Assembly (NCBI GenBank): GCA_030272155.1
Contig: CP126193.1
Coordinates: forward strand, 6,882,001-6,946,000
Direction of reading: 5' to 3'
Length of the DNA: 64,000 nucleotides
Source: Tetradesmus obliquus
Taxonomy: Eukaryota > Chlorophyta > Chlorophyceae > Sphaeropleales > Scenedesmaceae
Below the pieces are notes generated by a model. The model did no database searches. It saw only the letters and a program-made list of their open reading frames with translations, and was not told the origin of the DNA. This document shows, piece after piece, positions 35,688-64,000 of the stretch (positions are counted from its first letter, which is position 1; each line of letters opens with the position of its first letter). A program made the position numbers and the translations under genes.

Positions 35688-38600
35688 TCACGACTCCATT
35701 GCATCCTCATACTTGCGGTCAGCATCTTCGCTGTCAGAGCCAGCTCCGTACTCTTCGCTGCTGCCTCCTTCCTGCTCTCCGTCCTCGCTGCCACTGCCGC
35801 TGCCTACATCGCTGCCGCTCATGCCCTCCTCTCCACTCTGTGCGGGTGGTAACACGGCAGCAGGAAGCAGAAGAGCCAGAGTAAAGCACAGCATCAGCAA
35901 GGTGCGAGGGAATAATGTGAGTTGAAGACGGCAGCAGAATTTTACAAAGGCGCAAGGCGATCCTGCTGGATGCTAACCAGCCGATGTGGTGATAGATTGT
36001 GGGTGCCATATGGAGCCTTGTGCAGCCCACACGCAGCTGCCGCGCCAGAAGACCTGGCGCAGCAGCCAGAGCCGCTAGGTAACGATTGACATCCGGCTGT
36101 GGTGTTGGTTGAACATACTAGTTGTGCAGCTACTTCACACAGCTGCACAACACTCTCGCAACCTTGCATGTGTGTGCACCTGCTGCTGCAGCCAACTTCA
36201 GCGCAGCACAGCATCCCACTGCCCGCTGCATCTCAGCTGCAAGTGCGCACTTGCAACATATCATGTCCTTCCTGCCATGTGCAGAACCACCAGCACATAG
36301 ACCCGCACAGCCATCCCTTTCCCCAACAAAACTCCAAAACCCCGACTCACCGCTGCTTCCTTGATTCCATCAGCCTCATTCGCTTCATCAAAGTCAAAGT
36401 CGCTTTCATCCCCGTCAGCAGCAGCAGCAAACGAGGCAAAGTCTGCCTTGACCCGCTTCGCCTTCTTTTGCTCTGCCTTGGCCTTCTTGGGGTTGTGCTG
36501 GCCCACAGCATTGTACAGTTCCACATTCTGGCCTGCCTTGCCTGCTGCTGCTGCTGCTGCTTTGCCGCTGGTGCTGGGCGCACCATCCTCATCGTCCATG
36601 GCATCTGCAGGGCGGCAACAACACACCAACTGACTTAAAAATATATCATGTAAGCCCAACTTCTGTGTCGCTATCTTGGTATGCACACGCCTGCCTGTAT
36701 GCGGTCGCTGAGCTGCAACAAGCAAGCGCTACATCATTGCTGCTGTCTCAGCATGTATGTTCCAGCAGCTAGCGCTGCTGCTGCTGCTGCTGCTGCTGCC
36801 GCTGCCGCACTCACCCTCGCCATCTGCCGCCTGCTGCTGCTGCTGCTCCTCGGCCTCCTCCAGCTGCATTGCCACTGCGCCTGCTGACTGCGCCTCAAAG
36901 AATGCAGCGCCGTCATCCTCCAGGGAGGGCAGGTGCTGGATGACAGCTTTTGCCTCGTCAGCAAACACCCTGCAGGAACGCAGATGACGTTACAAATACG
37001 GCAAATGTTAAACATGATGCTGCAGCAGAGGCAGGGTGCAAGACACGCAAGGTTCGCAGGGCAGGACGGAGTCAACAGTGATGGTAAAAGCTGGCTGCAG
37101 CACCAAACACTCATGGTTGGTTTCTGCAGCAGCAGCTGTGCATTGCGAGACGAAGGGCGCACAACAGCAGTTTCTGAGGCTTGATAAAACAAGCTGGTAG
37201 AGCAACATTGTGGGTGCCATATGGAGCCTTGTGCAGCCCACACGCAGCTGCCGCGCCAGAAGACCTGGTGCAGCAGCCAGAGCCGCTAGGTAACGATTGA
37301 CATCCGGCTGTGATCTTGGTTGAACATACTAGTTGTGCAGCTACTTCGCACAGCTGCACAACACTCTCGCAACCTTGCGGCGCGCCAGCCTTGCCCAATG
37401 CATGCTTATGCGCCGCAGCTGAGAAACCATCGCGATTTCATACGAGCTCTCAAACATTGGACAAGGTTAAACCGGCAATAGTGACGATACTTGCAGCACA
37501 CTCGGCAACTCACAGACCACAACAGCAGCGCAGCGCAGGGTTCAGCCATTCAAGTGCCTGCGCCACACACAGCCGCCCATGCTGTGACCACCTCAAACAA
37601 CCGACAGACACACACACCCAGCAGCACGCTCAACAGCCCACAACAGCAGCAGCACAGGGCGAGTGCCTAACGTCTTAAACGTTTCAGCCACTCACGTGTC
37701 TGCATCAAACTCCGCGGCCCAGCTCGTCACCACCTCTGCTGTGTTGTACTGCGTGTTCTTTGCCTTGGGCGGCAGCGTGTAGTAAGGGATGCGGCCCTCA
37801 TTCCAGTCTTGCAGCACAATGCGCGCAGCAGCCTGCGCGACAGATGAGGAAAGATGGCACAACATATAAGTGGAGCAAAAGCAACACAACCGGATGTGGC
37901 GCTCATTCCAGTCTTGCAGCACAGTTCGAGCAGCAGCCAGCGCCGTGGATGCGAGAAGCAATGAGAATGCGCAAAGCAGCGCAGCAGGAAGCTCACACGT
38001 GTAGCACAAAGCAGTTGAACACACACTGCCTTTTTGATAAGATAGCATGTGATCAGAATTGCTCTTGAGTTGTGGGTGCCGGATATTCGAAGATCAGTGC
38101 ATGCTTTTGACTTCCCATCCCCGGAGATCCGCACCGCTGCTGCTGTTGCCCCGTCTTGTACCCGGGCCGGCACTGGCAGCAGCCGGAACAGGTCTTCACT
38201 CAGGGGCTTGGCAAACACACCAACACACGTGCATGCTGCTGCGCTGTTGTACCTAGGCTGCTCACCACACCAACATGCCTTTGGCATCCTAAACACTGCT
38301 CAATGAAAGGGTCTGGCACCCATAGTTGCAGCTGTGCTCCCATGCGATTCCGCCACACATTGATGCAACCTCTACCAAAGCACAGCAGCCCACCTCCACG
38401 TCCACGATGCCGCCCTTTTTGAGCTTGCCGCGTGCTGCAGCGATCAGCTGCAGGAACTGATCCACGCCCGCAAAGGCGCCGATCTTGTAGACCGCCATCA
38501 GCTGCTTGGAGGGCACGCGCTTCATAATCTCGCCCACGGGGGTGAGCGGGTCCGCCAGCCGCTCCACCTGCAGGTGAAGATGTTGTGTAACATGTCACGA

Positions 38601-40385
38601 ACTAGTTCAATGGGGTGAAACATGCTGCATGACATGATTGTGACGTGCTTCGAGCTCTCGCCCACAGGCGTGAGTGGGTCCCCCAGCCGCTCCACCTGCA
38701 GGAGACCAGACGTTTGCAGGAAAGCAAGAGGCAAAATGGTTTGAACTTGCAGCATTTAACTTGCAGCTTTTAATTGTGACGGTTGAAGAATCTTGCCAAC
38801 AAGGGTGAGCGGGTCCTCCAGGCGCTCGATCTGCAGGTGAAGATGTTATGTCACATGTTACAAACCAACTCAATGAACTGGAGCAAGACTAAGAACAGAT
38901 TAGACCAGGCAGCGCAACGGCTGCTGCTGCTGCTGCAATGCCGCTGCAAACACACAACAGCTTCACCTAACCCAATTCAGCCACAGCCACATAACAGCGG
39001 CAGCGCACCTTGATGGCGTTGCGCAGTGCTGCTGCTGCTGCTCCCTCGCCGCTTGTGAACACGATACCGGGGGAGTCCAGCAGCCTGATGTGCTTATCCA
39101 GGTGGATCTCCTGCACGCCCTTGGTCACACCTGGCGTGCTGCCTACCTGCAGGGAAAAAAGAGTGAGATGAAATCAAGCGTGAGGGTGAGAACAGATTAT
39201 CCGTAGACCACCTTATTTAGACACGGCTGCTATTCTGCTGCGAAAGTATTACATATGCATGCAATGGCTCTGATAAACACAAACACGATGCATGGCCCGA
39301 CTCATCTAGCACTTCAAGCTGAGGTGCTTGCAGCTTCCTATTTTATCGGATGTCTGTGGTGGCGTATCCCGCTTGAACACACAGTGAAACCCCTCTATCT
39401 ATCAAGCACTCCAGGGCCACCTGTGCCACGCATGCCCGCTTGAGGCTGTTGATCAGCATGCAAGTAAAGCTTGGAACACACAGGGCTCGCAAAAGCAATG
39501 CAAAACATAACCCACGGCTAAAAGTTCAGCTCACACAGCACACCCAGGGCCCACCTGCGCCACGCGTGCACGCTTGAGGCTGTTGATGAGGCTGGACTTG
39601 CCCACATTGGGCAGCCCCACAACGCCCACAGTGATGCTGCCCTTGCCACCCATCGCATTCCTCGCATAGTTCTTCAGCAGCTGCAGCAGCGTGTCAGCAC
39701 CCAGGCACGCAGACCCAGCAGCAGCGTACGACTGCTCGCTGCCTGCTGCTGCTGCTGCTGAGGAGCCTTTCTTGCCTTTGCCGCCTTTTACTGCTTTGGC
39801 CTTGCCCAGGCCCTCCTGCTGCTGCTGTGTTGAAGCTTTGAAGGCCACTGCAGGCAGCTCCTGGCGGTAGTGCTTCAGCCAGGCTTCTCCAACTTCACGA
39901 GGCACCAGGTCTGCGGGGTTCAGGGTTTACAGTGGAGGCAGGGGTTTTGGCAGCTGGGTTTAGTCATGTGCAAAGAGGTAGAGGTGGTAGTGCTTCAGCC
40001 AAGCCTCACCAACCTTGCGAGGCACCAGGTCTGCACATATAATGATTCAGCAGCAGCAGAGGTTGGTGAAGTTTGTAGGCAGCAGCGGAGGCGCAATGGT
40101 GTGAACATGCTACACTGAACTCAAAACAATGTGCAAGGTTGCAGCAACGGCTGGCGCACAGCATATCAAAGTATGACTGCAGCTGTGCTCCAACATAGCT
40201 ATGATGAGAAGTGCTCACTGCATGACACACATGCAGCATGTGTCGATTCCATCACGGTGACGCACTCACCCATCTTGTTGAGCAGCAGGATGATGCGCTT
40301 GCTGGCGTCCAGGCTGCGCACGTAGCGCTCCACATCAGGGCAGCGGCAACCCGCAGGGTCGCGTGCATCAAGCACCTGGCAACAC

Positions 40386-40419
<34 letters not shown>

Positions 40420-42719
40420 GGTCAGCAGGTTTAGCGGCGGGGCAACAGAATGAGCAAGCAGCTATGCAGTGGAAGTAGTACAGCTGGCTCACGCAACACT
40501 TGCTGAACACACACGATGCTTGCTGCACATGAGCCGTTGAACCAACGGGCTTGGCTAGGCCCAGGCAGCCCATGTACAGCAACAAGACATGGGAACACTG
40601 TGCAGCAGAACCCTGGCTGGGACCTGGCTGGGATTGGCTCACCTGAATCATCACGTCGCTGGCCTCCACCATGCATGCACAGCAAGCAGCCGCAGCTGCC
40701 ATGCAACTCAAAATTGTATAATCAGAAACATGCAACCCAGAGCATGAGGCAGCGGCTCACCTGGATGACCACATCACTGGCTTCCACCACGCGCCTGAAC
40801 TCCTTGTAGAATGCGCGCCTGCTGTTGTCTGCGCACACACAGCCACATATGCATGTCAGCAACATTGTGAAGCACGCAAGCTCCAGTGAGCCACGCACCT
40901 GTGCGTTTAATAGCGAAAAGCACAAAGCACGGAGTGCTTGCGGCCTGCCTGATACCACAGAGCAGCAGGCTGCTGCTGCAGCTGCGGAATGTGGGTGCCG
41001 GATATTCGAAGATCAGTGCATGTTGTTTACTTCCCATCCCCGGAGATCCGCACCGCTGCTGCTGTCACCCCGTCTTGTACCCGGGCCGGCACTGGCAGCA
41101 GCCGGAACAGGTCTTCACTCAGGGGCTTGGCGAACACACAACATGCACATACTGAAACCTGGCCACTGTCTGCTGCTTTTCAAGTGCTTCCTGCTGCCTT
41201 CCTTTGCTGTCTCTAACCGACTTGTTCTCCGCTATACTTTTCATTTGCTGATGCCTATACGGAGCACTTGCACACACCTGCATCTCCTGCTTTGGTGCCT
41301 TCGCTGGTCAGCTTTGCTTTCTTGCGCGCCTCAAAATCTGTTGCCTTGTGTGCTGCACTGGCCTGCAGCGCTGCCAGCTGCTGCAGGTCCTCCTGCTCAT
41401 CATCCATAGCAGCTGCATTTCGCTCCTGTGTGTTGGCAGCCGTGATTCAGCAGTGCAACATGGCAGCAGTGGTGATAGTAGTAATGTTAGCCTGAGCTTC
41501 TGCATCACATACAGCATGCATGCAATGCTAGCGGCCACACCGATTTACTTGATGCCTCAAGACATTTTGCTTCTGCTTGCGTGAGAAGCAAAGTGGTTGC
41601 CATGATTGTGGGTGCCGGATATTCGAAGATCAGTGCATGTTGTTTTCTTCCCATCCCCGGAGATCCGCACCGCTGCTGCTATCGCCCCGTCTTGTACCCG
41701 GGCCAGCACTGGCAGAGCCGGAACAGGTCTTCACTCAGGGGCTGATTCTGACATGCGTAAAGTCACCCTGCACAGCCATTCTGGAGCACACATGTACTGT
41801 GCGCTGCTCACCGCATGCGCTTTGCCTTGGTGTGCTGCAGGAAATGTCTGCTCATTTGGCCAGGCAGCTGCATTCCATGCTGCAACACCCTGCTTCTGCT
41901 CTGCTTCTGCTCCTAGCCAGCTCACCTCTCTGTTCCCTTTGCGCTCCTCGCGCTCGGCCTTGTCTGCCAGCAGCACCTGCTGCCATACAACACACCACTA
42001 TAACATCCAGCTGCTGCTGCTACTGCAATCTAAACCTGAACAGCTCACCTCTCTGTTGCGCTTGCGCTCCTCGCGCTTGGCCTTGTCTGCCAGCAGCACC
42101 TGCTGCCGCTTCCAGGCCATCTCCTTGAGCAGCTCCTCCTTAAAAGGCCACTGGCTGGGGATCTCAGGGCCCACGGTTTTTAGGTCTTTGGGCTTGCGGC
42201 CGCTCTTCTTTAGCTCGCGGCGCTGCTTGCGGTGGTGCTCCTTGACCTTCTTGATTTGCTTGTACTGTGGGGCGGCAAGGGAGTGGGAGGTTTTCGTTAG
42301 GGTGAGGGGTTGGTGGTGGGTTGGTGGGTGTTTGTTGCGGAGGAAGTGTGGGTGGAGCATGAAAGGGGAGGGGGCACAGCATGCGCGTGCAAGGACAAGA
42401 TGCCAGTTTAATGTGTGGTGATAGGCAGCGCATGGGTGGGCTTCGTACGTGCAAACACTTAAAGTGCTATTGTTAAGCACATGCTATGCAGTGAAGAATC
42501 CAGGATGTGTGCTGTATGTATACAGTGCATGCTGCTGGACGGCACCAGTGCCGGCGGCAGCAGCAGCAGCAGCAGCAGCAACATGCACCCACACCATGCA
42601 GCGTGCAGCGCATGCTTGCGCGTATAGTCGACTTATGCATTCCACAAAGCGCTTCACACCTTCTGCTTAAGCGTCAAGCGCTTGGACTTGGACTTCTTTG
42701 AGCGTTTTGCTCCCACCAT
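35688..42719 (-). CDS. GNL3: Nucleostemin-family circularly permuted GTPase (GNL3/NSN1)
   Basis: Twelve exons in gene order: 42719-42660, 42264-42049, 41425-41278, 40828-40761, 40375-40270, 39910-39555, 39146-39009, 38567-38394, 37832-37696, 36969-36815, 36604-36351 and 35837-35688. They sum to 653 codons plus stop. The Lys/Arg-rich start with [18 protein letters not shown] is a Grn1-type nucleolar segment. The GTPase motifs run in permuted order: G4 NKMD (split by intron 5), G5-like FKAST, G1 [10 protein letters not shown]3 DSPG. Acidic, Ser/Gly-rich sequence ends the protein. By family, it works in the nucleolus in 60S ribosomal subunit assembly. The product is longer than the roughly 580 residues of Arabidopsis NSN1, mainly through Ala and Gln inserts. 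Its introns are remarkable: six exon edges have damaged copies about 105-135 bp away, and five copies of two repeat families sit in other introns or other parts of the same introns. Confidence 0.93.
35997..36167 (+). repeat. Intronic repeat family R1, copy 1
   Basis: About 171 bp, beginning ATTGTGGGTGCCATATGG and ending CACTCTCGCAACCTTGC. It is nearly identical to copy 2 at 37,207, with a handful of substitutions. It lies in the last intron of GNL3. Its first nine bases of the GTGGGTGCC type are shared with family R2, which suggests a common terminus and perhaps a related mobile origin. No terminal inverted repeat or clear target-site duplication is visible. Confidence 0.85.
37207..37378 (+). 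repeat. Intronic repeat family R1, copy 2
   Basis: Second copy of the 170-bp R1 sequence, in the same orientation as copy 1 and in a different intron of GNL3 (between exons 9 and 10). It begins ATTGTGGGTGCCATATGG. The flanks differ from those of copy 1 immediately outside the unit, so the unit moved or was copied as a discrete block. Confidence 0.85.
37891..37938 (-). repeat. Exon-edge echo of GNL3 exon 9 (5' edge)
   Basis: The sense strand repeats the start of exon 9 (codons for [12 protein letters not shown]) about 105 bp upstream of the real exon. The acceptor AG has been lost in the copy, so it is unlikely to be spliced. Confidence 0.75.
38072..38220 (+). repeat. Intronic repeat family R2, copy 1
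   Basis: About 150 bp, beginning GTGGGTGCCGGATATTCG and ending near TCAGGGGCTTGGCAAACAC, in the GNL3 intron between exons 8 and 9. On the GNL3 sense strand this copy stays open across most of its length ([19 protein letters not shown] and onward). This may mean that R2 carries a fragment of a gene. Copy 2 has a stop in the same frame. Confidence 0.85.
38641..38880 (-). repeat. Two exon-edge echoes of GNL3 exon 8 (5' edge)
   Basis: The acceptor region and first codons of exon 8 ([12 protein letters not shown]) recur with acceptor points at 38,695 and 38,830, against the real one at 38,567. Spacings are 128 and 135 bp. The intron sequence just before the acceptor is copied as well, so the duplicated unit spans the junction. 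The outer copy keeps CTGCAG at the acceptor but carries changed codons. Confidence 0.8.
39412..39459 (-). repeat. Exon-edge echo of GNL3 exon 6 (3' edge)
   Basis: The last codons of exon 6 ([12 protein letters not shown]) and its donor recur 134 bp downstream in the gene sense. The copy has several substitutions in the coding part but keeps GTGG at the donor. Confidence 0.75.
39982..40030 (-). repeat. Exon-edge echo of GNL3 exon 6 (5' edge)
   Basis: The acceptor and first codons ([15 protein letters not shown]) recur 120 bp upstream of the real exon, with a working-looking TGCAG acceptor and only a few changes. Of all the echoes this one could most easily act as an alternative acceptor, although reading on into the real exon is not in frame by inspection. 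Confidence 0.75.
40636..40675 (-). repeat. Exon-edge echo of GNL3 exon 4 (3' edge)
   Basis: The last codons of exon 4 ([10 protein letters not shown]) and donor GTGAGC recur 118 bp downstream in the gene sense as VEASDVMIQ with an intact donor. Confidence 0.75.
40991..41140 (+). repeat. Intronic repeat family R2, copy 2
   Basis: About 150 bp, with the same ends and orientation as copy 1, in the GNL3 intron between exons 3 and 4. It is roughly 95 percent identical to the other two copies by eye. Confidence 0.85.
41608..41743 (+). repeat. Intronic repeat family R2, copy 3
   Basis: About 136 bp, same start and orientation, in the GNL3 intron between exons 2 and 3. It has a 3-bp deletion in the GCAG run and loses similarity just after TCAGGGGCT, earlier than the other copies. 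Confidence 0.85.
41920..41980 (-). repeat. Exon-edge echo of GNL3 exon 2 (3' edge)
   Basis: The end of exon 2 ([17 protein letters not shown]) and its donor recur 123 bp downstream in the gene sense as [17 protein letters not shown] with an intact GTGAGC donor. The long identity suggests a rather recent duplication. Confidence 0.8.
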
Positions 42720-44669: not shown

Positions 44670-46853
44670 ACAATGCCACAGGTGGAGCCCGGATGGGCTG
44701 TCCGTGGTGCTTGTGGCAGACTTTTGTGTGCGCATGACCATCTGGTCGCTGGTGGACCGCAAGTGCACCTACCTGCCTGGGCCCAAGCATGCCAGCAAGG
44801 GCATCGCATTCTCGCCACGCGCAGACCAGCTGGCAGTGCTTGAGGTAAGCAGAGAGCTGGTGTAGTTGTCCAGGGGCATTGCGACCAAATTGCTTGCACA
44901 GACCCAGCCAAGGGCGCATCATTGGCAGCAAGCAGAGTGCTGTCTGGCACGCTTGTCATTGTCATCAATTTCGTGGACATGCCTCACCGCCTCCACGCTC
45001 ACCCATCCTGTCACAGTTTGCTGCATGGTGCTCTGTGACCTCGGCTTCTGTATGCCTTGCTTTTGGGAAGCTGCTTCCTGTCCCTATTGTTCCCTTGCCC
45101 ATGCAGCAAAGACTGCAGAACAGGCTAGCACTGTACAGCACCAGCAGCGGCTGCGCAGGTGATTACCCTCTTGCTGCATCTTCTCCCTGTGATCAAGTCC
45201 ACAAACTGCTGCGTGTGTCCGCTTTTCCTGTCCATGCAGCGCAAGGACTGCAAGGACTGGCTGGCACTCTACAGCACCAGCAGCGGCTGGGAGCTGCAGG
45301 CGCGGCTGCAGCTGCCAACCCTGGACGCTGCTGACCTGTCCTGGAGCCCAGACAGCAGCAAGCTAGCTGTATGGGACAGCGCGCTGACATATGCTGTGCA
45401 CGTGCTGGGGGCTGATGGGGAGGCCTTGGGCAGCTACAGCGCGTATGGTGATGGCCTGGGCGTGCGCAGCGTGGGGTGGTCCCCAGGAGGCGACTTGCTG
45501 GCAGTGGGCAGCTATGATCAGGTGGGAGCGGTGGCCTGGGCGTTGGATCACTAGTGTGAGTTGCATTCTGTACTGAACACTTGTGATGGCTGCACGGTGT
45601 TGTCGTGCTCTGCGTTGCGGTTGTTGCGCGATGGTGGCGACATACCAAAAGGAACTGCACAGTGCTGTGTCACGTGTGTCTTGCGCTCACGCCCTGCAGG
45701 TGGTGCGGCTGCTCAACGGCAGGACGCAGCAGCTGTTGCTGGGGTGCAATCACTCTTGCATCTCGCATGTGTTCACGCACGTGTTGCCTTGCTTGCATGC
45801 TGCAGGTGGTGAGCATATCGAACAGCATGACGTGGCAGCCGCTGCTTGAGTGCCGCCACATTTGCATTCTGAACACACCCACACGTGCTGCCTTGTGTTC
45901 ATGCGCAGGTGGTGCGCGTGCTCAACGGCGTGACGTGGCAGCCGCTGCTGGAGTGCCACCACGGCAGCCCAGTGGACGAGCCTGCGCAGGTGGCAGTGTA
46001 CCAGGAGGTGGAGGAGCCGCGGGGGGTGCTGGCGCCGCTGCAGGTTTGTATCATTGTGTTGCAAGAGCAATTGTTCAGACGCATGCAGACAGGCCAGTGA
46101 CAGTGGGTATGTGGGTTTGCTTCTGCGTGTTGGTAGGCAGTGGAGGAGCCGAGCGGCATGCTGGCGCCGCTGCAGGTGCGTGTTTGGATGTTTGAGTCCT
46201 GCAGTTTGCTTTACGGCCTTCTTCACTCTGCTAGCATGAGACGAGTTGCACATCTCAAGGGTTGTGGCATTGGCAGTGCAGCCAACCGTTCAAGGCAGTT
46301 CGTGGCAGGCAGCGTACTGCACCGCATGGACTGTTTTGTGAGCTGACCCTGTGGTGCCGTTCATTTACCTCGTTCATGTGTGTGCTAGCAGCTGCAGCAG
46401 CAGCAGTCCCCCGCCGCTAAGCGCGACACGCGTGCGCGCTACCTGGTGTGCCCGCTCCCTGTGGAGGTCACCAACATCACGCCGCCCACAAACAAGCCAA
46501 ACCCCACGCTAGGAGTCGGCAGCATTGCCTGGAGCCCCAACAGCAGCCTGTTGGCAACAGTAAACGAGAACATGCCGCATGCTGTGTGGATCTGGGATGT
46601 GCTATCTGCCTCGCTGGCGGCTGTGCTGGTGCATATCGGCAGCGTGCGCAGCATGGCATGGTCTCCTGCAGGAGACTACCTGGCGGTTGGCACCGGCAAC
46701 TGCCGCGTGTATGTGTGGACGGCTGAGGGAGCGAGCATCGTGCACATTCCGCTTGCAGGATTCAGTGCGTCGCAGCTGGCGTGGGCGCCTGATGGCAGCA
46801 GCTTTGCGCTGATGGATCAGGAGGCGTTCTGCTGCGCGTACGTCACCAGCTAG
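43290..46853 (+). CDS. WRAP73: WD40 protein WRAP73 (WDR8)
   Basis: Exons are 43290-43292, 43720-43895, 44240-44350, 44682-44844, 45240-45521, 45909-46043 and 46392-46853, which sum to 443 codons plus stop. The start codon sits alone before an intron (ATG|GTATGC), then the protein continues [18 protein letters not shown], as in animal WRAP73, which starts MNFSE. WD40 blocks include [73 protein letters not shown] and the C-terminal [17 protein letters not shown] and [18 protein letters not shown]. Human WRAP73 has about 460 residues. By family, it acts with SSX2IP at centriolar satellites, spindle poles and basal bodies; a role in algal cilium assembly is inference. Three loci carry exon-edge echoes. 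The lone ATG is the least certain part. Confidence 0.9.
45107..45161 (+). repeat. Exon-edge echo of WRAP73 exon 5 (5' edge)
   Basis: CATGCAG and the coding start of exon 5 (ALYSTSSG region) recur 133 bp upstream of the real exon, with a frame-disturbing set of changes in the first codons. Confidence 0.75.
45700..45875 (+). repeat. Two upstream echoes of WRAP73 exon 6
   Basis: The start of exon 6 ([18 protein letters not shown]) occurs three times with intact AG acceptors, at 45,700 ([18 protein letters not shown]), 45,806 ([18 protein letters not shown]) and 45,909 (the full exon). Spacings are 106 and 103 bp. Only the third runs to a sensible donor and matches the family best. Confidence 0.85.
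46141..46180 (+). repeat. Exon-edge echo of WRAP73 exon 6 (3' edge)
   Basis: The end of exon 6 ([11 protein letters not shown]) recurs 132 bp downstream as [11 protein letters not shown], with both an AG before it and a GTGCG donor after it. It could therefore be an alternative 36-bp exon. Confidence 0.75.
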
Positions 46854-49190: not shown

Positions 49191-49274
<84 letters not shown>

Positions 49275-49555
49275 AGGCCTGCCTCTGCAGCTGCCAGCCT
49301 TCCTGCTGCAGTCCGTCAACCTCCTTGCAGCAGCCGGGCAGCCGGTGGTGTGCTCGCCGCTGCGCACTGCAATGCGTGTGGTGGAGGCTTTTATAAGAGC
49401 GCTCACGCATGAGCACTGCGTGGCAGCGCTTGGCTTCAAGTGGTCCTGGGCAGCAGTCATGCTGCAGCAGCTGCTGAACTACGCAGTGGCTGCAGGCCTG
49501 ATGCGCGCACTGCCAGGCGGAGCAGCAGCGCCGTCAGCGGCGGTGTGCAGGGCAG

Positions 49556-50912: not shown

Positions 50913-50944
<32 letters not shown>

Positions 50945-53107: not shown

Positions 53108-55350
53108 ATGAGCAGCAATATTTCAACCAGCAAGGCAGTTACCTTTATAAACAACGATGTGAGTCACACGTGTTCAACTGCAGTGGACACACAGCCTTCT
53201 GCTCCTGTACAGCACATGCTGCTGCTGCAGTGCTGCTGCTGCTGTGCGCTGCTGACTTCGCTGAATTGCAGCTGTGAAATGAATGTGACACATGAGCAGT
53301 GCTCAAGAATGATGTGTGTCAGTTGAATCAGCCTGTGCTTGGGGTTGCAGGGGCTGAAGCTTGCAGGAACGCTCACTAGCAGCAGCAACCCAGGCAGCCA
53401 GCAATGTATCATCATGTGCCATGGCTACCAGAGCTACAGGGAAGGCTTCCAACTGCCGGCACTGGCAGCTGCTCTGGCAGAAGCAGGTAAGCTATTGGTA
53501 ACAGAATGCAGCTCACGCTGACGGTCACGCCACGCTTGCCAGTACCAGTTGCCAATGTGTACTTGTTCACTAGTTCAAGATCATGTGTTACATGGTGGAT
53601 GGCCTAGCACACAATGCACCCACTTCATCCAGGTATACCCTTTGCTGCTGCTGTGTACTGCCAGGCGCATTCACTCTGCAGTATTGCAGCAAAGGTCTCT
53701 GCAGCAGCAGTGTGCTGCGGGGAGTGCGCGCCCAAGGCCCAAAGCATGCAGTCAAAACAACTGATCCTCACCTTCTGCTGCTTGCAGGCTACAACAGCTT
53801 TAGGTTTGACTTCAGCGGTGAGTTTGACCAGCACGCTTGCAGGACACTTGCAGGCAACGTGCACGGCAGGCGTGCTTACAGCAGCTGCACAAGTGGGCTG
53901 CGCCCTGCCCCCTGATGGCATGCAATGCATGTCCATGCAGGCATCAGCGCAGCACTTCAGGAACACTGGCAGCAGTAGCCACGGCATGCAGCAGAGCCAG
54001 GGAAACAGTGCAGGGGACAGCAGCAGCAGCAGAGGAGAACACAGTCGTCCTAGGCGTGCCTAGGCGTGCCTCCCCCGCCCTTCGTCGCCCTCATGCAAGT
54101 TGATGTCTAAGCCAGGTGCAAGGCCTTGGAACTGCCGCATTCCCGACATTGGTTTGCAGCTTTTCGTGCTCACACCCTCTCTGCTGCTGGTGGCGCTGGC
54201 TGCTCAACAATTGCTGCTGCTGCCAGGCAATGGCGACAGCGAAGGCACCTTCCGCTTTGCCAACTACTGGGGTGAGGTGGCTGAGATCCATGCGGCCAAG
54301 CAGCACCTGCAGCAGCATGAGGGGCAGGCCGTCATTGGGCTGCTAGGTAAGGGCCGGGGGTTGCAATGCAAGCCTTGCGGTGCAGTACAATGTAGTGCGG
54401 CGATGCCGGAGGCCGGTAGGCTTGATGCGGTGAAGTGCGGCAAAGTGCAGCCACCTTGGCCTGTTGCATGTGTGGCAGTTCTGGGGTATTCGCACTACAT
54501 GCTGCTGTCTTTGACCACGTGCAGCATGCTCGTGCAAAGCAACGCAGCTGCGTCTCCTGACCTGTACTGCCTCCTTCTGTCGGAACTTTATGCCGCATCA
54601 GGGCACTCCAAAGCCGGCGGCGAGGTGGTGCTGTACGCCTCGTCATATGACGACATTCCACTCGTTATTAACGTAGCCGGGCGCTTCTGGATGGACAGGG
54701 GCGTCACCATGCGCTTTGGGGAAGACATTTTTGAGCGTGCAGCAGCAGCCCCTGTGGAGATGCCTGCTCAGAGAGATGATGGGCACACCTTCACCTGGCT
54801 GCTCACAAAAGAAGTGAGCGAGCTGGCAGACCTGTGGAATGCATGGTTTGGTACAGCACCTTCACATGTCATAAGTCTTAAAACATAACACGCCAGGAGC
54901 TTTGCAGCAGCAGTGCATAGGATGTGGCTCCTGCAGCGCATCACTGGCATGTGGCATGCTGATCAACGCATGCTGTGACAGCGCAGCAGGGAAAGGGCCA
55001 TTCCCAGTCGCAACAAGCCAGAGTGGCACGGTGCATAATGTGTGTGTTGGCGGCATAACTGTCTGCATTCACCTGTGTGTCTGCAGGACCTGGACGAGCG
55101 AATGAACCTAGACATGGCTGCAGCAGCTGCTGGCATCAAGCGCTCAAAGGTCCTGACCATACACGGCACTGCTGACAGCGTCATCCCAATCGATGATGGC
55201 CGCCAGATGGCTGAAAGCATAGCAGGCAGCAGCTTGGTTGAGGTTGAGGGGGCGGACCACAACTTCCGAGCATCAGAGCAGGTGCTGCAGCAGCTGATAG
55301 CCGCAGTGCTGGGTTTCCTGCAAGAAGGCAAGGCCAAGGGCTGGGTGTGA
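53108..55350 (+). CDS. Alpha/beta hydrolase (serine hydrolase)
   Basis: Exons are 53108-53158, 53351-53486, 53788-53817, 54227-54346, 54602-54813 and 55087-55350, in phase, 270 codons plus stop. The fold markers are an oxyanion-loop HGY (IIMCHGYQSYREGFQLP), GYNSFRFDFSGNGDSEG, the nucleophile elbow GHSKAGG (Ser about 115), the acid in HGTADSVIP (Asp about 213) and the base in VEGADHNF (His about 241). All three catalytic residues are present. The elbow has one extra Ala compared with GHSKGG of plant and yeast relatives. The product appears cytosolic, with no signal peptide. By family it hydrolyses esters or amides, but the substrate cannot be told from sequence. The first exon, MSSNISTSKAVTFINND, is supported by phase and a GTGAGT donor. 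Confidence 0.9.
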
Positions 55351-56758
55351 GCACCAGCACTGCACCTGGCAGCTGCCGCTAGGCAACAGCAGTGTAGACA
55401 TTTCAAAGGCGTGCATTCACGTTGGCATGGTGTCTTCCATGCTTTGTCAAGCCGTTGACATTGGCTATGGTCCATTGCATGGAGTCATGCTTTGTACGTG
55501 CACCTCAGCTCAGATCCCAGATCTGGTAGGCACTCCAAGGTTTGGCAACAGGCTAGCAGGCAGCGCGGTGGCACCGCACAGGCTTGTAAGCGTTTTGGTG
55601 TGTGTGACCAGTGATTGCTGGGGTGCTTTCTCCTCAGGTGGATGCTACTCTCTATCCACTCCTGCTGCTGCTTCTTTGCAGATCTCTGCGGTACCGCTAC
55701 TGGTAGTCATTGCAACTACAGGCTGCTGTTCTTGACATGCATGTTCAGGCGTTGTTAAGCGCGGCTGGGCGGTGGCTGAACGCTTTATGACGTTTTTGGT
55801 TTAGTGCAGCTGAAACACGCGTGGTGACACCTGCAGGTGACACTGTCTCGCCAGCATCAGCGCGAGAGGAGCAGTCTGCTATTATGTGACGTATGTATAC
55901 AGCTACACGAGACGTCAAGGTCAGTACTGTCACTTACAGGAGCTTTGCGAACACCGTTACTGTCGCAAGCAGCGCTGAACATACTAGCCACAACACCACT
56001 TTAATGCAGATCATACACGTAGTTATTTCCTTCTGATTTAACCTAGGCGTTACCCGCTGCTTAAGCAGCAGGTGAGGTACTGTCACGTCAACATGGCAGA
56101 GGCAGCGCGATTGACTTCCTGCTGAGCAGCAAGGGCATGATGCATCGAGATACAATCTGCCAAACTGTGGCAGAGCAGGAGTTTGACCTCGAGGTGAGCA
56201 GGAAGATGCAGCGGATGTCAGCAGCTTGTGCTGAAGCAGCAGACCAGCACGCCTTGGCCCACGTGGGCCCACATGCACACTGTGCCAGGTCAGCACCATT
56301 TCACGCCCTGCAGCGGTTGCATAGCCTGCCATTGGCACCTAGGGGTGGTATGCATCATTGAAGTGTCAGCAAAACTTGTTGTGGCTGGCAGGGTGGCACC
56401 GAAGGATGCCAACCTTGCTCAGCTTCTATGTTCTAGCACCCTGCTTTAGGAAGACGTCATCGCCTGAGTGGCCGCCCCGGGTTTAGACTGTCACTTGCCA
56501 CCACATGAACATTGTTTTTGCACCAGCATTTTTATGCAGCATTTCCTAAAAAGTGACCTTCTCCTCCCTTCTGATCCACACCCATTGTCAATCAAGTCAA
56601 GCACAAAAAATTACCATCACGAGACTTTCTGCGGGGGCCTCCTGGTCCAGCATTGCCTGAAGGTGCAGAACTGTGCAATCACTGTATGAATACGTTCTGA
56701 CACATCATCTACCACATGCTAAAAGACTCTGCAAACTGCATGTTAGCATGCACCGCAG
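55351..56758. other. Mostly unassigned, possibly 5' exons of the next gene
   Basis: I cannot support a full gene here. An open frame around 56,100-56,360 reads DFLLSSKGMMHRDTICQTVAEQEFDLE followed by a GTGAGC donor at 56,193, and could be an upstream exon of the gene whose last exons start at 56,759. The rest shows nothing. Confidence 0.35.
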
Positions 56759-57387
56759 TACTCCCACCTGCGGAGCCTGGACTGCACAGAGCAGGAGAAC
56801 CCCCACGGGCGCCACCTCACTCCCCAGAAGACATACAGCATGCGGGACGTGGCAAGGCTGGCTTTGCAAGTCAACGGGCCCACAGGAGAGAACCTTCTGC
56901 TGCGCAAGCAGCGTGCAGATGCAAAGCTGCAACGCTCAGATACAAAGCAGCGCATCGCAGCGGAGCAGAAGGCAGCAGCAGCAGCGCTCACGCCGTCAAG
57001 CCTGTCAGAGAAGCTCTGCAAGAAAGCTGGGGTGGCACCGTGGAGCAAGCTGACCAAGCAGGACATGTTGACCAAGTTTGACTTGGAGTACAGTGAGCTG
57101 GAAGCCCTAGGGGTGGCGTTTGAGGCAAAGCCCAACCCCAGGAACCCCAGGTTTTTTTTGTTTTTTTTTTTGGTTCAGGAACCCCAGGTTTCAGGAACCC
57201 CAGGTTTAAGCCCATGCGGCTATACAAGGCTGGGGACGTGGCCAGTGCCTTGGCTAGGAAGCAGCAGAGGGCCCAGGAGCTGCAGCAGCAGCGGGAAAAT
57301 GCCAGAGCAGCACAGATGGCGGCCTCTCGGCGCGCTGCGCGGGCAGCTGCAGCCGCAATTGAGGCAGCTGCAGAGCAGCAGGCATGA
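56759..57387 (+). CDS. Unidentified gene, last two exons
   Basis: Two coding exons, 56759-57150 and 57204-57387, are joined across a 53-bp intron in phase. They give about 192 residues and are open at the 5' side. The sequence starts YSHLRSLDCTEQENPHGRHL, has TYSMRDVARLALQVNGP, a Lys/Arg/Gln/Ala-rich helix, KAGVAPWSKLTKQDMLTKF, and then NPRNPRFKPMRLYKAGDV. It ends in a long Arg/Gln/Ala helix. I recognise motif flavour (HGRHL and RFKPMRLY) but cannot name the family. The charged, helical character suits a nucleic-acid-associated or scaffold protein. That is only a guess. The acceptor before 56,759 (CACCGCAG) is in phase with an upstream exon ending at a codon boundary, such as the one proposed at about 56,192. 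Confidence 0.6.
57151..57203 (+). repeat. Micro-intron built from tandem copies of the exon edge
   Basis: The word AGGAACCCCAGGTTT occurs three times. The first copy forms the donor side (CCCCAG|GTTTTTTTT), the third forms the acceptor side (CCCCAG|GTTTAAG), and a T-rich run fills the middle. Removing the 53 bp restores NPRNPRFKPMRLY. Both splice points use the same copied CCCCAG|GTTT. Confidence 0.75.
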
Positions 57388-58869
57388 AGCGGTGTTATGT
57401 CAGTCAGTATGGGCTTAGGCACTACTGTGCTTATTGCTTATTGTACAGTGACAGCAGGCAGACGAGAGGGACACTGCCTGTTCACAACGGCTAATACTGC
57501 GAGCACCCCCCCCCCCCCCCCAAAGCACCCTGAACCCCACAGTGGGGAATTTGACTGGTCGCCGAGCGAGGTTGACCTACCAGCAGGCAGCCTTACAGGC
57601 ATTGTAATTTCATCGAAGACAATAACACTACTTCAGTTATTCGTCTTGCAAAACATCGGGGCAACAGCTCATGTTTCCACGAGTGAACCGATGCTTCGCC
57701 TTACGAAAAGGCCAGACTGCTTTTGCTGTGGCAAATCAGTTCGATAAGATTGTAAAACGTTACCAATTGTACCTAGTAGTTTTTTGGGCTCTCCTGCAGA
57801 GTATGTTTGTGCCATCAGTCCAGATGCTGCCAAGCCAGTAGGGCCCATGGCCCAGCACCAGCACCACCGTGTGCAAGACATGCTCTGTGAAGCTCAAATT
57901 TTATGCAGCTAGCTACAAGAGTCAGACTGAAGTTCGCTCCACTAAGCGCAGCTGCACCCCAACATCACCACCAGCGGCAAAGCATGTGTGCAGTACTGCT
58001 GCAGCGGGCAGTACGGTACTGCAGCACAGCCCGGCACCACCATCAGCGCTTGAGAGCCCTTGGTAAGCATCATCAGTGCCAGTATATCAACCTAGGCTGT
58101 ACACGTCATCGTATGCATATCCTGACACTCATGAGGTCCCGGAATCCGCTTGCAGGAGGGTGGGGGGTTTTAAGAGGCCGCAGCTTCACACTTCTGTTGA
58201 CAAAGAGAACATGCCAACGTGTGCACAGCGGCTGGAGCAGCTGGTTGGCGCAGCACCTGCTGGTTTGACAGCGTTGGGAGCCCTTTGCCCCTGCGAGTCA
58301 ATGACAGGCTGACTGGGCAACCACCAAATCTATCAACCATGATAGACTGAGGACCGGGTACAGTGACACAGTATATATTGCTGATAATTGTGGATTGCAT
58401 GCTAACACATGCTTGCAACAGCTGGCTTGGATTGATCGGTCGCAGCAAAGTGTCACTGGCAAGTGCCGCGGCGGTCAACAACGGCGTGATGGCATAAACC
58501 GGAACGCAATGTTCATATGACCTAGTACTGTGATTATTTGACATGTTGTAGCCTGCATAGCTGCCTGCATAAGGGAGTGACATTTGACGGCCAGTACGTA
58601 TGAGCATGACACACCCGATTGCTTTCCATCGACGGGCATCAAAGGCCATCAGCAACACTATGAAATGCAAAGATAGCTATCTGGACAGTTCCCAGGTGCT
58701 ACACCCTACTGTCGCTTGCGTGTGCCCAAAGGTAAAGTGTTATGTCAATGCGTAAACCTGCAGGCAGTGTACCAGTGGCTCCCTCACCATCATGCATTGG
58801 CAGTCGATGCTTGTCTATGACGTATGTTAGGCATGCGCAACACTTTGTTACCCAACGAGCACAGCACAG
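57388..58869. other. Spacer before the transporter gene
   Basis: No gene that I can support. A poly-C run lies at about 57,507-57,521. Two open frames at 57,869-58,066 and 58,076-58,312 could be exons of a small gene (SVDKENMPTCAQRLEQLVG in the second), with a TTGGTAAGC donor after the first, but I find no start, family or consistent phase. Confidence 0.4.
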
Positions 58870-60373
58870 ATGGCTGCAGGCTTTCAGCAGGTCTCTGCGA
58901 TGCCGACGCCAATCATAGCCGGTCAACCGAAAGACATATTAAATCTCAACCAAGAGTTATTTGATCAGTCAGTCGTGGAGTGCGGTGGACATGAAGAAGA
59001 GCCTGAGCTGAAAGCAGTTTTGAGCAAGTGAGCGAACACAACCAGGGCCAGCCATCGTCAATCAGCCAAACAAATGTTACATGGCATACATAATGTCTGT
59101 ACTCTTGTACGTGCTGTTTCGCGCTGCTTTTTGTAAGGGGCATGTGACTCATGTGGGGTGAGCTGTTACGCCGCCATGGTGCACCATACCTCTCATCATG
59201 GTGCATCCTGATGCACATGCACCCGCTGCTGCTGCTGTCACCACCACACCTTCACCTGTGCACTGTTGCTGCCCATCTTCATGTAACTGCCAGAGTGTCG
59301 CGATGGCTGTTGCCTATATGCTTCCTAGCTGGCGTCTTCAGCTACCTGGAGAGCACCAATTTGAACTTTGCAGCACTGCAGCTAAATGCAGGCCTAGGCT
59401 TTGCCCCACAGGTGATTGTCACTGCACAAGCTGCCGGTGAATGACGGCCAGCCCCCAGAAACAGGGATCCTGATCGTTAGCACAGCTGCGGCCTGGCACT
59501 AAGCGTCTGCTGTCGTGCTTCAAAAGGACAGCTCTTCGTGTCATGTTGTCCTGCTTTGCCAGCTGGCAATCTCAGCATTTGAATATAGACAGGTCACTGG
59601 CAGTACACAGCTGTGTCCCGCTGCAGCGCACAAGAGCAGGCTGGCTCCAGATGCACTGTATGCAGGTCAACGCCTTTAGTCAACAAAGTTTGACCAAGTT
59701 CCAAATGGACTGTGCTGTGCTTCCTGCAGGACTATGGCCTGGGTGCTGGCCTGTTCTTCCTAGGTGGGCAGCAGCAGCAGCAGCAGCAGCAGCAACGAGC
59801 AGACGTGCCACAGGCAGCAGCAGCAGCATGACCAGAAAGGGCCCAAAGCAGCTGTCCCTGCTTCGCCTGCAGTTCATGGTTGGTGCAAACAGTAGCAAGG
59901 CTGGCACAGGTGCCACAAAATGCCACAGCACCGCGGCCCTGTAACAGGAGCAGGAGTGCTGATGTAGAGCAGCAGAACAACTACTTGACTGGCAACAATT
60001 CCATTACATAGAGTACATCACACAGGACGCATCAATCACTTGCTTCATCATCAACAAACTGCTTGCAGGGTACGGTCTGGGCCATGTGCCATCCACGTTT
60101 GCCACCATGCGCTGCGGGGCGGGCTGGTACAGCAGCATCGTGATAGCCTGGGGCATCGTCGCCACATGCGGCGCATTCATCAGCAGCAGCGCAGGGCTGT
60201 GCCTGCAGCGCTTCTGCATGGGGCTGGCTGAGGCTGGTGAGCAGCAGCATGACGCATTTGTTTGCAGGGTTTTCAGTGCAGCAGCAGCAGCAGCAGCAGC
60301 AGCGCAGGGCTGTGCATGCAGCGCTTCTGCCTGGGGCTGGCTGCGGCTGGTGAGCGGCAGCATGATGGGTTTT

Positions 60374-60408: not shown

Positions 60409-62764
60409 GGCGTTTTGCTGAGGCTGGTGAGCGGCAGCATGCTTGCTGAGTCGTTTGCTGGCAGCCTGCAGCAACGGTAGCAGCAGCAGCAGCAGCAGCA
60501 GCAAAACAGCAGATGCAGCCAACAGTACCTGTGCCTCCAGCAATGGAAGCGGCAGCAGCAGAGGCTTGCTGCAATAGCAAACATACTTCACAGCTGCAGT
60601 TGCGCAGTCAGCATCTTGCACATGGCATCGCAAGCAGCAAGGCACTGCCGGCTGCGCTGCGCAAGAAAGCCTGTCAGCAGCACCAAACCGCTGCTGCTGC
60701 TGCTGCTGCCGCAGGTGCCATTCCATCAGCGCTGCACCTCATGTCTCAGTTCTACCCAGTGCAGATGTGAGCTGCTGCGCTGGGGCCCCTGACAGTTCAG
60801 GTCCATGTCAAATGCAGCATCACAAGAGTTTATACTTGTTCCAGCAACAAGGTGGTTTGAGAGCAGCACCTGCTAGCCATGCTTGTACCTGCATAGGCAG
60901 CTGGCCTTGCAGCTGGCTGTAGCAGCCACACTGTAGTAGGCAGGGCCTCAGTAAATAGGCGAAGCTAATGTTGTCACGGGGCTGTAGCAACAGACATGGT
61001 GACACTGCAACCCTAGCTGTAGTTGCCTTATTACTAGCCTGGCAGCACAGGCTATACACCCACCCTGGGCGCGTCAGTACGCACTGCCCGCTGCCTCTCA
61101 CATGTTGCATGCTGCATTGCTGCCGCGCCGCTGCTGCAATAGGCGCAGCAAGCCGTTCCTGGCGGTGACGCTGGCAAATGTGGTCAGCGTGGTGTTTGCT
61201 GGGCCCCTGGCGGCCGGCATTATGACGCTGGACGGCCGCGCAGGACTTAGGGGCTGGCAGGTATGCAATTTGTTGGATTGTCACATATTCTAGGAATGTG
61301 GTCAGCGTGGTGTTTGCAGGGCCCCTGGTGGCAGGCATTATGACGCTGGACGGGCGCGCAGGACTCAGGGGCTGGCAGGTGCGCTGTGCTGGACTGCATC
61401 GTTTATCTTATTTTGCATTGTCCATCTCTGATGCATGATTGGACTGTGCCATTGTCATGGCGCTGGACGGGCGCGCAGGGCTCATGTGCTGACAGGTGTG
61501 TTAGTGGTTAGCCACGTTTGTTACTTTTTGAACGCAAGTACCAATATGGCAGGGTATCATGACGCTGGACGGCCGCAGGGCTCAGGGGCTGGCAGGTGGG
61601 CTTTTCTTTACTATCTGTCTCGTGTGTAACGCACGTGAGTAACGCTATGTCAGGGGCTGGCAAGTGCGCTGCTGTTAAATTTGCTTTTTTTGCCACTTCT
61701 GGTACAGAAAGTAATCGTGCGCATGTGTGAACAGGGGAGCCACAACGCAACAGGACTCAAGTTAAGTCCAGTATGCCTTGTTCCTGCAACAGGCAGCAGT
61801 TCAATAATTTGATATCACACATTGAATGGCACATGCGCCTCACTCCAACGCCGCTGGCCTGCATTCCTGCAGTGGCTGTTCATCATCGAAAGCTTGACAT
61901 CAATTGGTATATATTGCAAGTTTGTTGATGTTCAATACGCCACGGTTACACAGCTCAAGAGTATGCATATATGCTGCTTGCCTGCCTTCCTGCAGTCGCT
62001 GTTCATCATTGAAGGCTTGCCATCCATTGCGCTGGGTTCGGTGATGATGCTGGTGCTGCCCTCAGGCCCCCTGACAGCCTGGATGCTCACGCCAAGGGAG
62101 CGCCAGTTCCTGCACAACAGGGTGAGACGCGCGGTTGATCGCTAGCTGATTTGTCTGTGAATAGTATCCACGGAGTTTTGAGGGGAGACATCTGCGGCTA
62201 AGCGAGAGCCAATTCCTGCACAGTAGTTCAAAGCTGAATCACATGCTGACTCAAGAACCTGTGCCGCAAAAACCGCGCCAGCCGGCAGCAGTAGATTGTG
62301 TGCTCCTCCTTCAACGAGTGGTAGTGTGACATGCGCCATTGCCACTGCTGCTGCTGCTGCCTCACAGGTGCACGAGGGCAACGCTGAAGCAGCAGAGGCA
62401 GCCAAGCAGCGGCTGCAGTGGAAGCAGATGATCAGCCTGACCATGGAGGCCCTGCGCATGCCGCAGCTGTGGTTCTTCAGCATAGCGGCCTTCTTATGGG
62501 GTGGGTTTTGGGCTGTATAGCTCTGTAGCTGTCTGCATCAACTTGTGTTGCATTTGTGCATCAATTGTACCAGCAATAACTAAATGCTGCTCTGTAGTGA
62601 CAGATTTCTTTGTTCTGCCAAGCAACTGTGAGAAAGAGGCATGTCCTGACATTGTCAATCTTCGCGTGCACTGCTGCAGTGCTTGCTGCGTTGGTCAGGA
62701 TGTGTGCAGGGCTTGTCAGTCTTTGCGTCCTTTTACAATACCTCGAGGCCACCTCCGGACCAAC

Positions 62765-62805: not shown

Positions 62806-63684
62806 GTGCTCCCCTGCAGTCCTAGGCATCTTCAGCCTCAATGCGTGGATGCCCATCATAATAAAGAACATGCTCGCCGGGACAGCGCTGCAGTCCAGCA
62901 GCAGCAGCGGCGGCAGCTCGGCAACCAACACCCTGCACGCCACACTGCTCGCGACCATCCCCTACTTTTGTGCGGCGATCGCAATGTGGCTCAACACGTG
63001 GAGCGCGAGTCTTTTGCGCGAGCGCACGCTGCATGTTGGGCTGCCGTGTGTGTTTGGCGGCATCCTGCTGGCGCTGTTTCAGCCGATGTACAGCGCATCG
63101 TCTGCCGGGGGCTTTTCAGTGCTGGTGATTGCGATCGCCTGCGCTTACAGCGGGCAGAGCAACATGTTTGCGCGCGTCACAGGTGAGCTCTGGCCTCTGT
63201 CGATGCTTGCAGGGGCGCTTGCCTGCCTGTCTATTTACCCGTCAGCTTGCCTGCTGGCCTGCCTGATTGCCACCAACCTGCCTTCCTGCGCAGTCCTTGG
63301 CCGCACCATGCGTGCCTGATTGCTTGCCTAGTGGTTGTGCCTGCTCAGTGCCTAGACAGGCGTGTGTCCCTGCCTGGTTGTCGACCTGCGCATCTACATG
63401 TTTGTGCGGATCACTTGCTTGCCTCTCTATCCACCTACCTGCCTGCCTGTGTACATGTCTGCCTGCCTGCCTGCCTGCATGTCTGCCTGTCATCAGAGTC
63501 CCTGGAAACCAGACCTGCTAATTTGCTCGCCTGCCTGTTGTGCCTGTTCGTTTCAAACCTGCTGACACCCCCTTTTCTTGCCTTGCACCTGCCTGCCTGC
63601 CTGCCTGCCTGCCACCAGAGTCCCTGGACACCCAGCATGCTCGACTACATGTTTGTTTTGATCACTCGCTTACCTTCCCATCCA

Positions 63685-63719
<35 letters not shown>

Positions 63720-64000
63720 TTCGTCTGCCTGCCACCAGAGTCCCTAGACACCAGACCTGCAAATTTGCTCGCCTGCCTGTTGTGCCTGTTCGTTCCACAC
63801 CTGCTCACACCCCCTCTGCCTGCCTTTGCACCTGCCTGCCTGCCTTTTGTCCGCCTGCCACCAGAGTCCCTGGACACGCGGCACGCTGGCGTCGGCATTG
63901 CCATCTTTAATGCCATTGGAGCAGCAGCAGGCGGCTTTTCTGGGCCGTGGGTTGTGGGCACGCTGGTGAACCGCATTGGCTCTTTTGTGCCATCCATGGT
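58870..64000 (+). CDS. Major facilitator superfamily transporter, anion:cation symporter type (3' end outside window)
   Basis: Exons are 58870-59027, 59294-59411, 59730-59763, 60069-60236, 60715-60766, 61143-61260, 61996-62121, 62368-62500, 62820-63182 and 63865 onward, all in phase. The start MAAGFQQVSAMPTPIIAGQP is the first ATG after an in-frame stop. Membrane segments begin at SRWLLPICFLAGVFSYLE. MFS landmarks are YGLGHVPSTFATMRCGAGWYS, IPSALHLMSQFYPVQ, GLRGWQ followed by LFIIEGLPSIALG, LTPRERQFL, a central charged loop (EGNAEAAEAAKQR), and the second half with NAWMPIIIK, TLLATIPYF, GQSNMF and GIAIFNAIGAAAGGF. The pattern fits the Dal5/allantoate-permease-like group, which moves organic anions across a membrane; substrate and membrane are unknown. 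At the join of exons 6 and 7 the usual Trp after GW(R/Q) is Ser, while a damaged upstream copy of exon 7 keeps Trp. Exons 4, 6, 7 and 10 all have echoes. Confidence 0.88.
60290..60426 (+). repeat. Two echoes of MFS exon 4 (3' edge)
   Basis: The exon end (SSSAGLCLQRFCMGLAEAG) recurs as SSAGLCMQRFCLGLAAAG with donor at 60,349, 113 bp after the real donor. A shorter remnant with donor at 60,426 follows 77 bp later. Confidence 0.8.
61295..61662 (+). repeat. Four echoes of MFS exon 6 (3' edge), decreasing in length
   Basis: The exon end at 61,260 (MTLDGRAGLRGWQ) recurs with ends at 61,378, 61,494, 61,594 and about 61,662. The first echo copies about 84 bp of exon, the next ones 40-48 bp, and the last only GGGGCTGGCAAGTG. 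Spacing is 118, 116, 100 and about 67 bp. Damage increases with distance from the real exon. Confidence 0.85.
61861..61906 (+). repeat. Echo of MFS exon 7 (5' edge)
   Basis: CCTGCAG and the exon start recur 123 bp upstream as WLFIIESLTSIG, against SLFIIEGLPSIALG in the full exon. The upstream copy keeps the Trp typical of the family and is followed by a GTATAT donor. Confidence 0.8.
63480..63864 (+). repeat. Three upstream echoes of MFS exon 10 (5' edge)
   Basis: The acceptor CCACCAG and first codons (ESLDT) recur at 63,497, 63,619 and 63,739 before the real exon at 63,865. Spacings are 122, 120 and 126 bp. The CCTG-rich and TTTGCTCGCCTGCCTGTTG segments between them are copied too, so the last 380 bp of the intron is a tandem array of exon-edge units. 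Confidence 0.85.

Follow-up and report, generated by a model that had tools for sequence, protein, structure and literature searches.

Decaying copies of exon edges at a preferred spacing in Tetradesmus obliquus introns, probable traces of recurrent short tandem duplication

Why some algae have introns far above the minimum length is an open question, and for relatives of Chlamydomonas both the mechanism and the advantage of long introns have been described as unknown (PMC8226300). A 64,000-nucleotide stretch of the Tetradesmus obliquus genome (bases 6882001-6946000 of contig C3 in a 104.66-Mb, 17-contig assembly; hereafter “the window”) bears on this question, as introns of several of its genes contain a damaged copy, or “echo”, of the edge of an adjoining exon. 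A preliminary description of the window had reported such echoes at a near-constant spacing of 95-135 bp and had suggested a single process. The window thus raises the questions of whether exon-edge echoes occur elsewhere in the genome, whether their spacing is truly set, and what kind of event could produce them.

We sampled the genome beyond the window with 20 pieces (L009-L028), each 10 kb long and placed at an arbitrary round coordinate on one of 14 contigs, and with one contiguous 40-kb piece on contig C12; with the window included, the sample amounts to 304 kb, or about 0.3% of the genome. The window itself was scanned for pairs of similar stretches at all offsets from 30 to 400. Counted without any gene model, short-range duplicates in the 304 kb fall into 120 independent clusters. 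Within a cluster, the smallest spacing is 80-169 bp in 90 of the 120, 30-79 bp in 8, and 170-599 bp in 22, and counts by tens of base pairs reach their maximum at 100-139 bp. A third-order Markov version of the 304 kb yields no pair at the same score cut-off (22 or more). A dense array in one piece (L019, beyond base 7900) is excluded from the cluster, placement, and null counts, from the search for fresh loci, and from the count of spacings by multiples of three. The spacing peak in this larger sample agrees with one process acting with a shared unit size. The claim of near constancy survives only in part: the peak falls where it was said to fall, but the range in the sample is broader, with 121 of 141 steps between successive copies lying within 60-170 bp (median of those steps, 121; quartiles, 106-138).

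We then related these duplicates to gene structure, using a small hidden Markov gene finder trained on the sample itself, so that all gene models are predictions from sequence alone. A strict run gave 38 genes with 338 exons and 300 introns (median exon, 163; median intron, 340), and the trained splice consensus was CAG/GTGAGY at donors and CTGCAG/ at acceptors, where the slash marks the splice point. CAG and CTG runs are abundant in introns and at acceptors across the whole sample. Each exon edge, represented by at most 90 bases of the exon and 12 or 30 of the intron, was aligned to its own intron, a score of at least 20 was taken as an echo, and introns shorter than 70 bases and exons shorter than 30 were excluded. 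An echo is present in the edge's own intron at 48 of 286 donor edges and 40 of 286 acceptor edges, whereas control pairings of the same edges with other introns gave 0 of 855 for donors and 0 of 855 for acceptors at a cut-off of 18 or more. About one in six sampled exon borders therefore has at least one decaying copy in the adjoining intron, and edges with echoes are found in 16 of the 22 sampled pieces, so the echoes noticed in the window are real and not restricted to it. The closest echo in the edge-test table is not nearer than 75 bp. Among 91 edges with echoes, 58 have one, 23 have two, and 10 have three to six, and donor and acceptor echoes share one intron above expectation (14 introns; odds ratio, 3.7; p 0.0016). 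In line with the intron lengthening proposed in the preliminary description, introns with an echo have a median length of 477 (n=71), compared with 305.5 for those without (n=208). The stretch between the exon edge and the farthest recognisable echo accounts for 12.7% of sampled intron bases, which is a lower bound because old echoes are unreadable.

Could the echoes be an artefact of the assembly or of the gene finder? The gene finder did call a few echoes exons (e.g., 41926-41976), and this had one misleading consequence. An apparent avoidance of multiples of three in spacing (28 of 121) looked significant but vanished in a count made without gene models, in which multiples of three are neither preferred nor avoided (45 of 150); the false deficit arose because in-frame echoes had been called exons. 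As an explanation of the echoes themselves, however, an artefact is extremely improbable: the size peak uses no gene model, the copies are not identical, differing in both substitutions and indels, homology to a solved protein fixes one edge (see below), and Pfam assigns three window proteins to known families (GNL3-type GTPases, WD40 repeats, and MFS transporters).

The duplications show a marked bias toward exons. Among the 96 clusters with a spacing of 70-170 bp, an exon is touched by 78, and the rest are noncoding (14) or wholly coding (4), whereas random placement of the same 96 spans gives 38.4 exon-touching, 45.5 noncoding, and 12.1 wholly coding clusters. Counted as pairs, intron-with-edge combinations number 59 (18.9 expected), exon-with-exon combinations 11 (26.5 expected), and intron-with-intron combinations 58 (74 expected), and 34 of the last 58 are echo-to-echo pairs linked to an exon. 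Fresh whole-unit loci with a period of 77-160 point the same way, with exon bases included in a copy at 8 of 10, these 10 having been hand-picked from 31 rows with harmonics of a 25-bp minisatellite left out; in the majority of fresh cases, the copies form an array whose copy number is not an integer. Of 18 wholly coding pairs at offsets of 30-400, 16 have an offset that is a multiple of three, though an open frame favours such offsets and 8 of the 18 lie in one gene. In another piece (L011, 39-448), in-frame coding repeats occur with steps of 93, 96, and 102, possibly the same duplication process surviving within an exon. At 32 unspliced gene ends tested, we found one echo within 70-200 bp, in which a coding end, stop codon included, recurs in the 3' flank at a distance of 115 bases downstream (L018, 5410-5589), and two further echoes at 232 and 439, a sample too small for comparison with spliced edges. 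As an echo can be found at a stop codon in a 3' flank, and as same-sized duplications occur inside coding sequence, a splice site is not essential.

The two copies have had very different fates. In a three-way comparison, private changes at codon positions 1, 2, and 3 number 10, 9, and 64 in the exon copy and 33, 36, and 59 in the nearer echo. The copy that is joined to the exon body is clearly under constraint. Echoes are not preserved as coding sequence: of their 28 indels, 25 are not multiples of three and shift the frame, and 5 in-frame stops occur in 1390 codons. We accordingly rejected a duplicated alternative exon, as these indels break the frame and the private changes of the echo are spread over the three codon positions. 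Coding constraint on the echoes, suggested by differences at third positions (161 of 282 among pairs at 70-200 bp; 249 of 426), is made less likely by the frame-shifting indels and the three-way comparison, though some of it may persist. A peptidase-S41 gene, fetched by its Pfam family (L034, approximately 1661-2054), illustrates the asymmetry between copies. Its acceptor edge has two echoes, at spacings of 237 and 90, and its match to a solved D1 protease (PDB, E 1.1e-15) has the first residue of the exon-joined copy as its start, with both echoes outside the match. The PDB entry, 1fc6, is the Scenedesmus D1 protease, of which this gene is only a relative. Long CTG tracts, which read as poly-leucine, separate the two echoes.

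Decay of coding sequence leaves room for another role, in which selection slows the decay of echoes because they act in splicing, whether as decoys, as alternative sites, or as regulated elements. Among pairs at 70-200 bp, to which the comparisons of splice dinucleotides, of spacers, and with matched simulations are confined, GT is kept in 25 of 31 donor echoes and AG in 23 of 27 acceptor echoes. In addition, the echo part is closer to the exon than the same unit's intron part is to its own copy, and echo changes show a weak third-position excess. Retention of GT and AG at these rates is nevertheless expected from descent alone at approximately 90% identity, and the stop-codon echo has no splice site. 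Moreover, the frame-breaking indels and the stops, together with spacings indifferent to multiples of three, run counter to a functional echo, which we consider improbable.

If a whole unit was duplicated across the exon-intron junction, then the sequence between exon and echo should be homologous to that which follows the echo. Collinear homology of this kind is significant in 21 of 58 pairs, and in 12 of the 22 pairs in which exon identity is at least 0.93. The intron half beside the edge can thus be aligned above chance in many pairs, as duplication over the junction followed by decay would have it. The remaining spacers have either diverged past recognition or hold filler; 6 of 12 look unrelated by eye, and many more do so by score, though such cases are expected to be rare in simulation. 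Unrelated spacers would also result if a mobile element or introner had inserted and made long target-site duplications, the spacer then being the element itself and the echo the duplicated target, and some pairs do have a block of 27-86 bases at 90-100% identity flanking an unrelated spacer. No similarity score of 14 or more was found among the 58 spacers, however, with neighbours within 2 kb excluded, and in many pairs the spacer shares homology with the stretch that follows the echo. As the spacers form no family, the mobile-element interpretation is largely refuted, and we hold it to be very unlikely.

Based on these observations, we propose, at a probability of roughly 55%, that short tandem duplication has recurred in this genome, often in or beside exons and typically with a unit of 80-170 bp, and that the echoes are its surviving halves. 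Tandem duplication would recur with a median step of approximately 121 bp, frequently in or beside exons. A unit lying wholly in coding sequence would be lost unless its length were a multiple of three; a unit straddling an exon edge would place its spare copy harmlessly in the intron or 3' flank. There the spare copy would lengthen the intron and decay almost neutrally, with the exon-joined copy held by purifying selection, and repeat events beside the first copy would build arrays of up to six echoes. We infer that exonic or transcribed chromatin is the favoured starting place of these events. Their source may be the filling-in of staggered breaks during repair, or else lagging-strand fragments that were wrongly processed, with unit length perhaps set by the nucleosome-scale spacing of nicks. 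Such spacing of nicks around exons would explain both the size and the place of the duplications.

Several results weigh against this proposal. A simulation of uniform tandem duplication with neutral decay gives 595 edge detections and 1148 intron-only detections, a ratio so far from the observed one that the exon bias must be added by hand. The per-base score of the intron half beside the edge, in order of falling exon identity, is 0.45, 0.24, 0.25, and 0.19, whereas matched simulations with the same detection predict 0.83, 0.66, 0.45, and 0.33; as the intron half is less alike than simulated, either the echo decays more slowly than the intron or some events insert unrelated filler. The ratio of differences at third positions to those at first and second positions is 2.8 (249 of 1445 vs 177 of 2921), compared with 1.65 in simulation, and among 81 changes in the nearer echo, third positions are still over-represented within base type (odds ratio, 1.71), so that echoes may be under some constraint. 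The gene models, moreover, are our own predictions from sequence. Finally, echo density is very uneven among genes, ranging from none in the 31 introns of gene model 3635-34761 (ODA9, in which the preliminary description had rightly found echoes not obvious) to 17 in the 22 introns of one gene on C12. Summed from the edge table, edges with echoes number 16 of 276 on contigs C1-C4 and 75 of 282 on C5-C15, perhaps a chromosome effect or a clustering of genes.

The same simulation bears on whether any exon bias is needed. Ordinary random short tandem duplication might suffice if edge events simply stayed visible longer, since one of their copies is constrained. The exon copy is plainly constrained, as its private changes attest, intron-only and coding-only pairs of the same size occur, and the simulation detects 0.52 of edge events compared with 0.38 of intron-only events. 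The data nonetheless depart from this model: the simulated ratio of edge to intron-only events is approximately 0.5:1, whereas exon-touching and noncoding clusters stand at 78 to 14, and the hand-picked fresh loci have exon bases in a copy at 8 of 10. The intron half also diverges faster than this model permits, and it leaves the scarcity of 30-79 bp spacings unexplained. We therefore think random duplication with ascertainment unlikely, though it merits more weight than the functional alternative.

We also considered replication error, by mis-processing of Okazaki fragments or by slippage as in FEN1 (rad27) mutants, in which fragment length would set the unit size. Lagging-strand fragment sizes cover the observed unit size, which counts in its favour. 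On the other hand, replication error predicts no exon bias, and simple repeats beside edges are no commoner where an echo is present (p 0.83, 0.28). As an explanation in its own right we consider it improbable, on a par with functional echoes. Simple-repeat hairpins as a trigger were rejected by the same comparison, the masked fraction beside edges being alike with and without an echo. Exon GC content at donor edges is higher with an echo than without (0.637 vs 0.602, p 0.001); the difference at acceptor edges is less clear (0.643 vs 0.624, p 0.062), and the echo rate does not track GC at third codon positions (GC3).

Within the window, echoes are concentrated in three genes. In the GNL3 gene (minus strand), exon 37696-37832 has an echo of its donor edge at 37541..37594 (spacing 142) and one of its acceptor edge at 37892..37943 (spacing 105). 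The acceptor edge of exon 38394-38567 is echoed twice, at 38643..38705 (spacing 128; part miscalled an exon by the gene finder) and at 38778..38840 (a further 135, or 263 from the exon copy). Exon 39555-39910 has echoes of its donor edge at 39414..39456 (spacing 134) and of its acceptor edge at 39983..40034 (spacing 120), and the donor edges of exons 40761-40828 and 42049-42264 are echoed at 40636..40674 (spacing 118) and at 41918..41984 (spacing 123, 94% identity; part miscalled an exon), respectively. Two other repeats occur in GNL3: a 168-base stretch at 36000-36167 recurs at 37211-37378, 1.2 kb apart and at 98% identity, and the introns contain three copies, recognised by eye, of an element of about 150 bases (at approximately 38075, 40992, and 41610) that starts near GTGGGTGCCGGATATTCGAAG and is perhaps a small mobile element.

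In WRAP73, a WD40 protein gene on the plus strand, the acceptor edge 45239/45240 is echoed at 45117..45153 (spacing 133-136), the acceptor edge 45908/45909 has two echoes within 45694..45867 (45694-45761 and 45800-45867; spacings 103 and 209), and the donor edge 46043 is echoed at 46135..46177 (spacing 132; part miscalled an exon by the gene finder). The MFS gene, also on the plus strand, has an echo of donor edge 60236 at 60291..60372 (spacing 113), with a 25-base remnant 77 further on, and a four-echo array of donor edge 61260 at 61295..61670 (from approximately 61295, 61457, 61553, and 61650), the first of these echoes having a spacing of 118 and 94% identity over 86 bases. Its acceptor edge 61995 is echoed at 61850..61906 (spacing 123), and its last intron holds a CCTG-rich array at 63481..63826, with steps of approximately 111-126 leading up to the copy at 63816-63877; we placed the exon edge at this point by eye, whereas in the gene-finder model the exon begins at 63928. 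The first 35 kb of the window contain pairs at 6079, 6901, 17876-18187, and 19685, of which 17876..18187 (plus strand) is an array just 5' of exon 18182-18317 with a period of 102-107 and a repeated block that is mostly intronic. A 25-base minisatellite of 15 copies lies at 23803-24190.

These positions reproduce most of the 24 spacings that the preliminary description had listed, 19 of which we confirmed. All seven in GNL3 (118, 120, 123, 128, 135, 134, and 105) appear as ungapped pairs. In WRAP73 we found 106, 103, and 132, and the reported 133 appears as 136, or as 133 and 136 flanking a small gap. In the MFS gene 113, 118, 123, 126, 100, and 120 were recovered and 116 was measured as 117; 122 is visible as 242 minus 120 and in no other form. 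The two outermost short remnants, given as 77 and about 67, measured 77 and 68. The four spacings assigned to the genes labelled B1 (97, 107, and 102) and B2 (116) lack support, as bases 46500-60100 contain no pair scoring 14 or more at 60-170 bp once simple repeats are masked, and the 116-bp match in B2 is an 18-base CAG-rich string; the spacing of 109 given for A1 was not located.

How do the echoes compare with known systems? They are a form of short tandem duplication that is notable for its size and placement. One parallel, raised in the preliminary description, is intron gain through duplication of AGGT-containing sequence (PMC3443670, PMC4974935), which also involves short tandem duplication touching exon sequence and splice sites; in a potato case, the duplication crosses an intron-exon boundary (PMC4974935). 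There, however, the length of the new intron equals the unit and the intron is bounded by two AGGT copies, whereas here the copy sits within an existing, longer intron. Echo distance equals intron length (within 12 bases) at 1 of 91 edges, and the AGGT model therefore does not describe these cases, which differ also in having a set unit size and, if the sample is typical, in involving hundreds of edges genome-wide. AGGT itself is present in both exon and echo in 19 of 31 donor pairs and 8 of 27 acceptor pairs at 70-200 bp. Minisatellites resemble the echo loci that form arrays of up to six echoes, but they are arrays of at least three contiguous similar units, unlike the single echo at 58 of 91 edges, and a standard tandem-repeat finder run on 35688-64000 of the window reported no edge echo at a period of 80-170.

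Repair and replication offer further comparisons. Fill-in of staggered breaks by CST-Pol alpha-primase and nonhomologous end joining produces small tandem duplications whose length follows the overhang (PMC8355091). Those duplications are likewise short and not repeat-driven, but they were described at induced breaks in mouse and human cells and span tens of bases, whereas the present ones are natural, approximately 120 bp, and exon-biased; any role of these enzymes here is drawn by analogy. In primates, break repair copies proximal DNA with a median of 147 bp, sometimes with filler (PMC2671141). Such copies can also carry splice sites, and duplicated exons there are unconstrained, but the donor-acceptor distance averages approximately 1.2 kb, compared with approximately 0.12 kb here, where the copies lie head to tail and arrayed. 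In FEN1-deficient yeast, as much as 100 bp can be inserted between short repeats (PMC5677150). Each of these three routes might account for the echoes. We found no report of exon-edge echoes of set spacing in the open-access literature searched.

More tentatively, we suggest that this lineage may have an active mutational process, tied to exons through chromatin or transcription, that copies DNA in tandem by steps of roughly nucleosome size; only edge-straddling units would survive, with introns built outward from exon borders and the echoes as a dated record. If this is true, set-unit duplication with a readable trail at exon borders would be a concrete, datable route of intron growth. It would also be predicted to provide a steady supply of extra splice sites, and it would offer a handle on a size-limited form of DNA repair or replication error.

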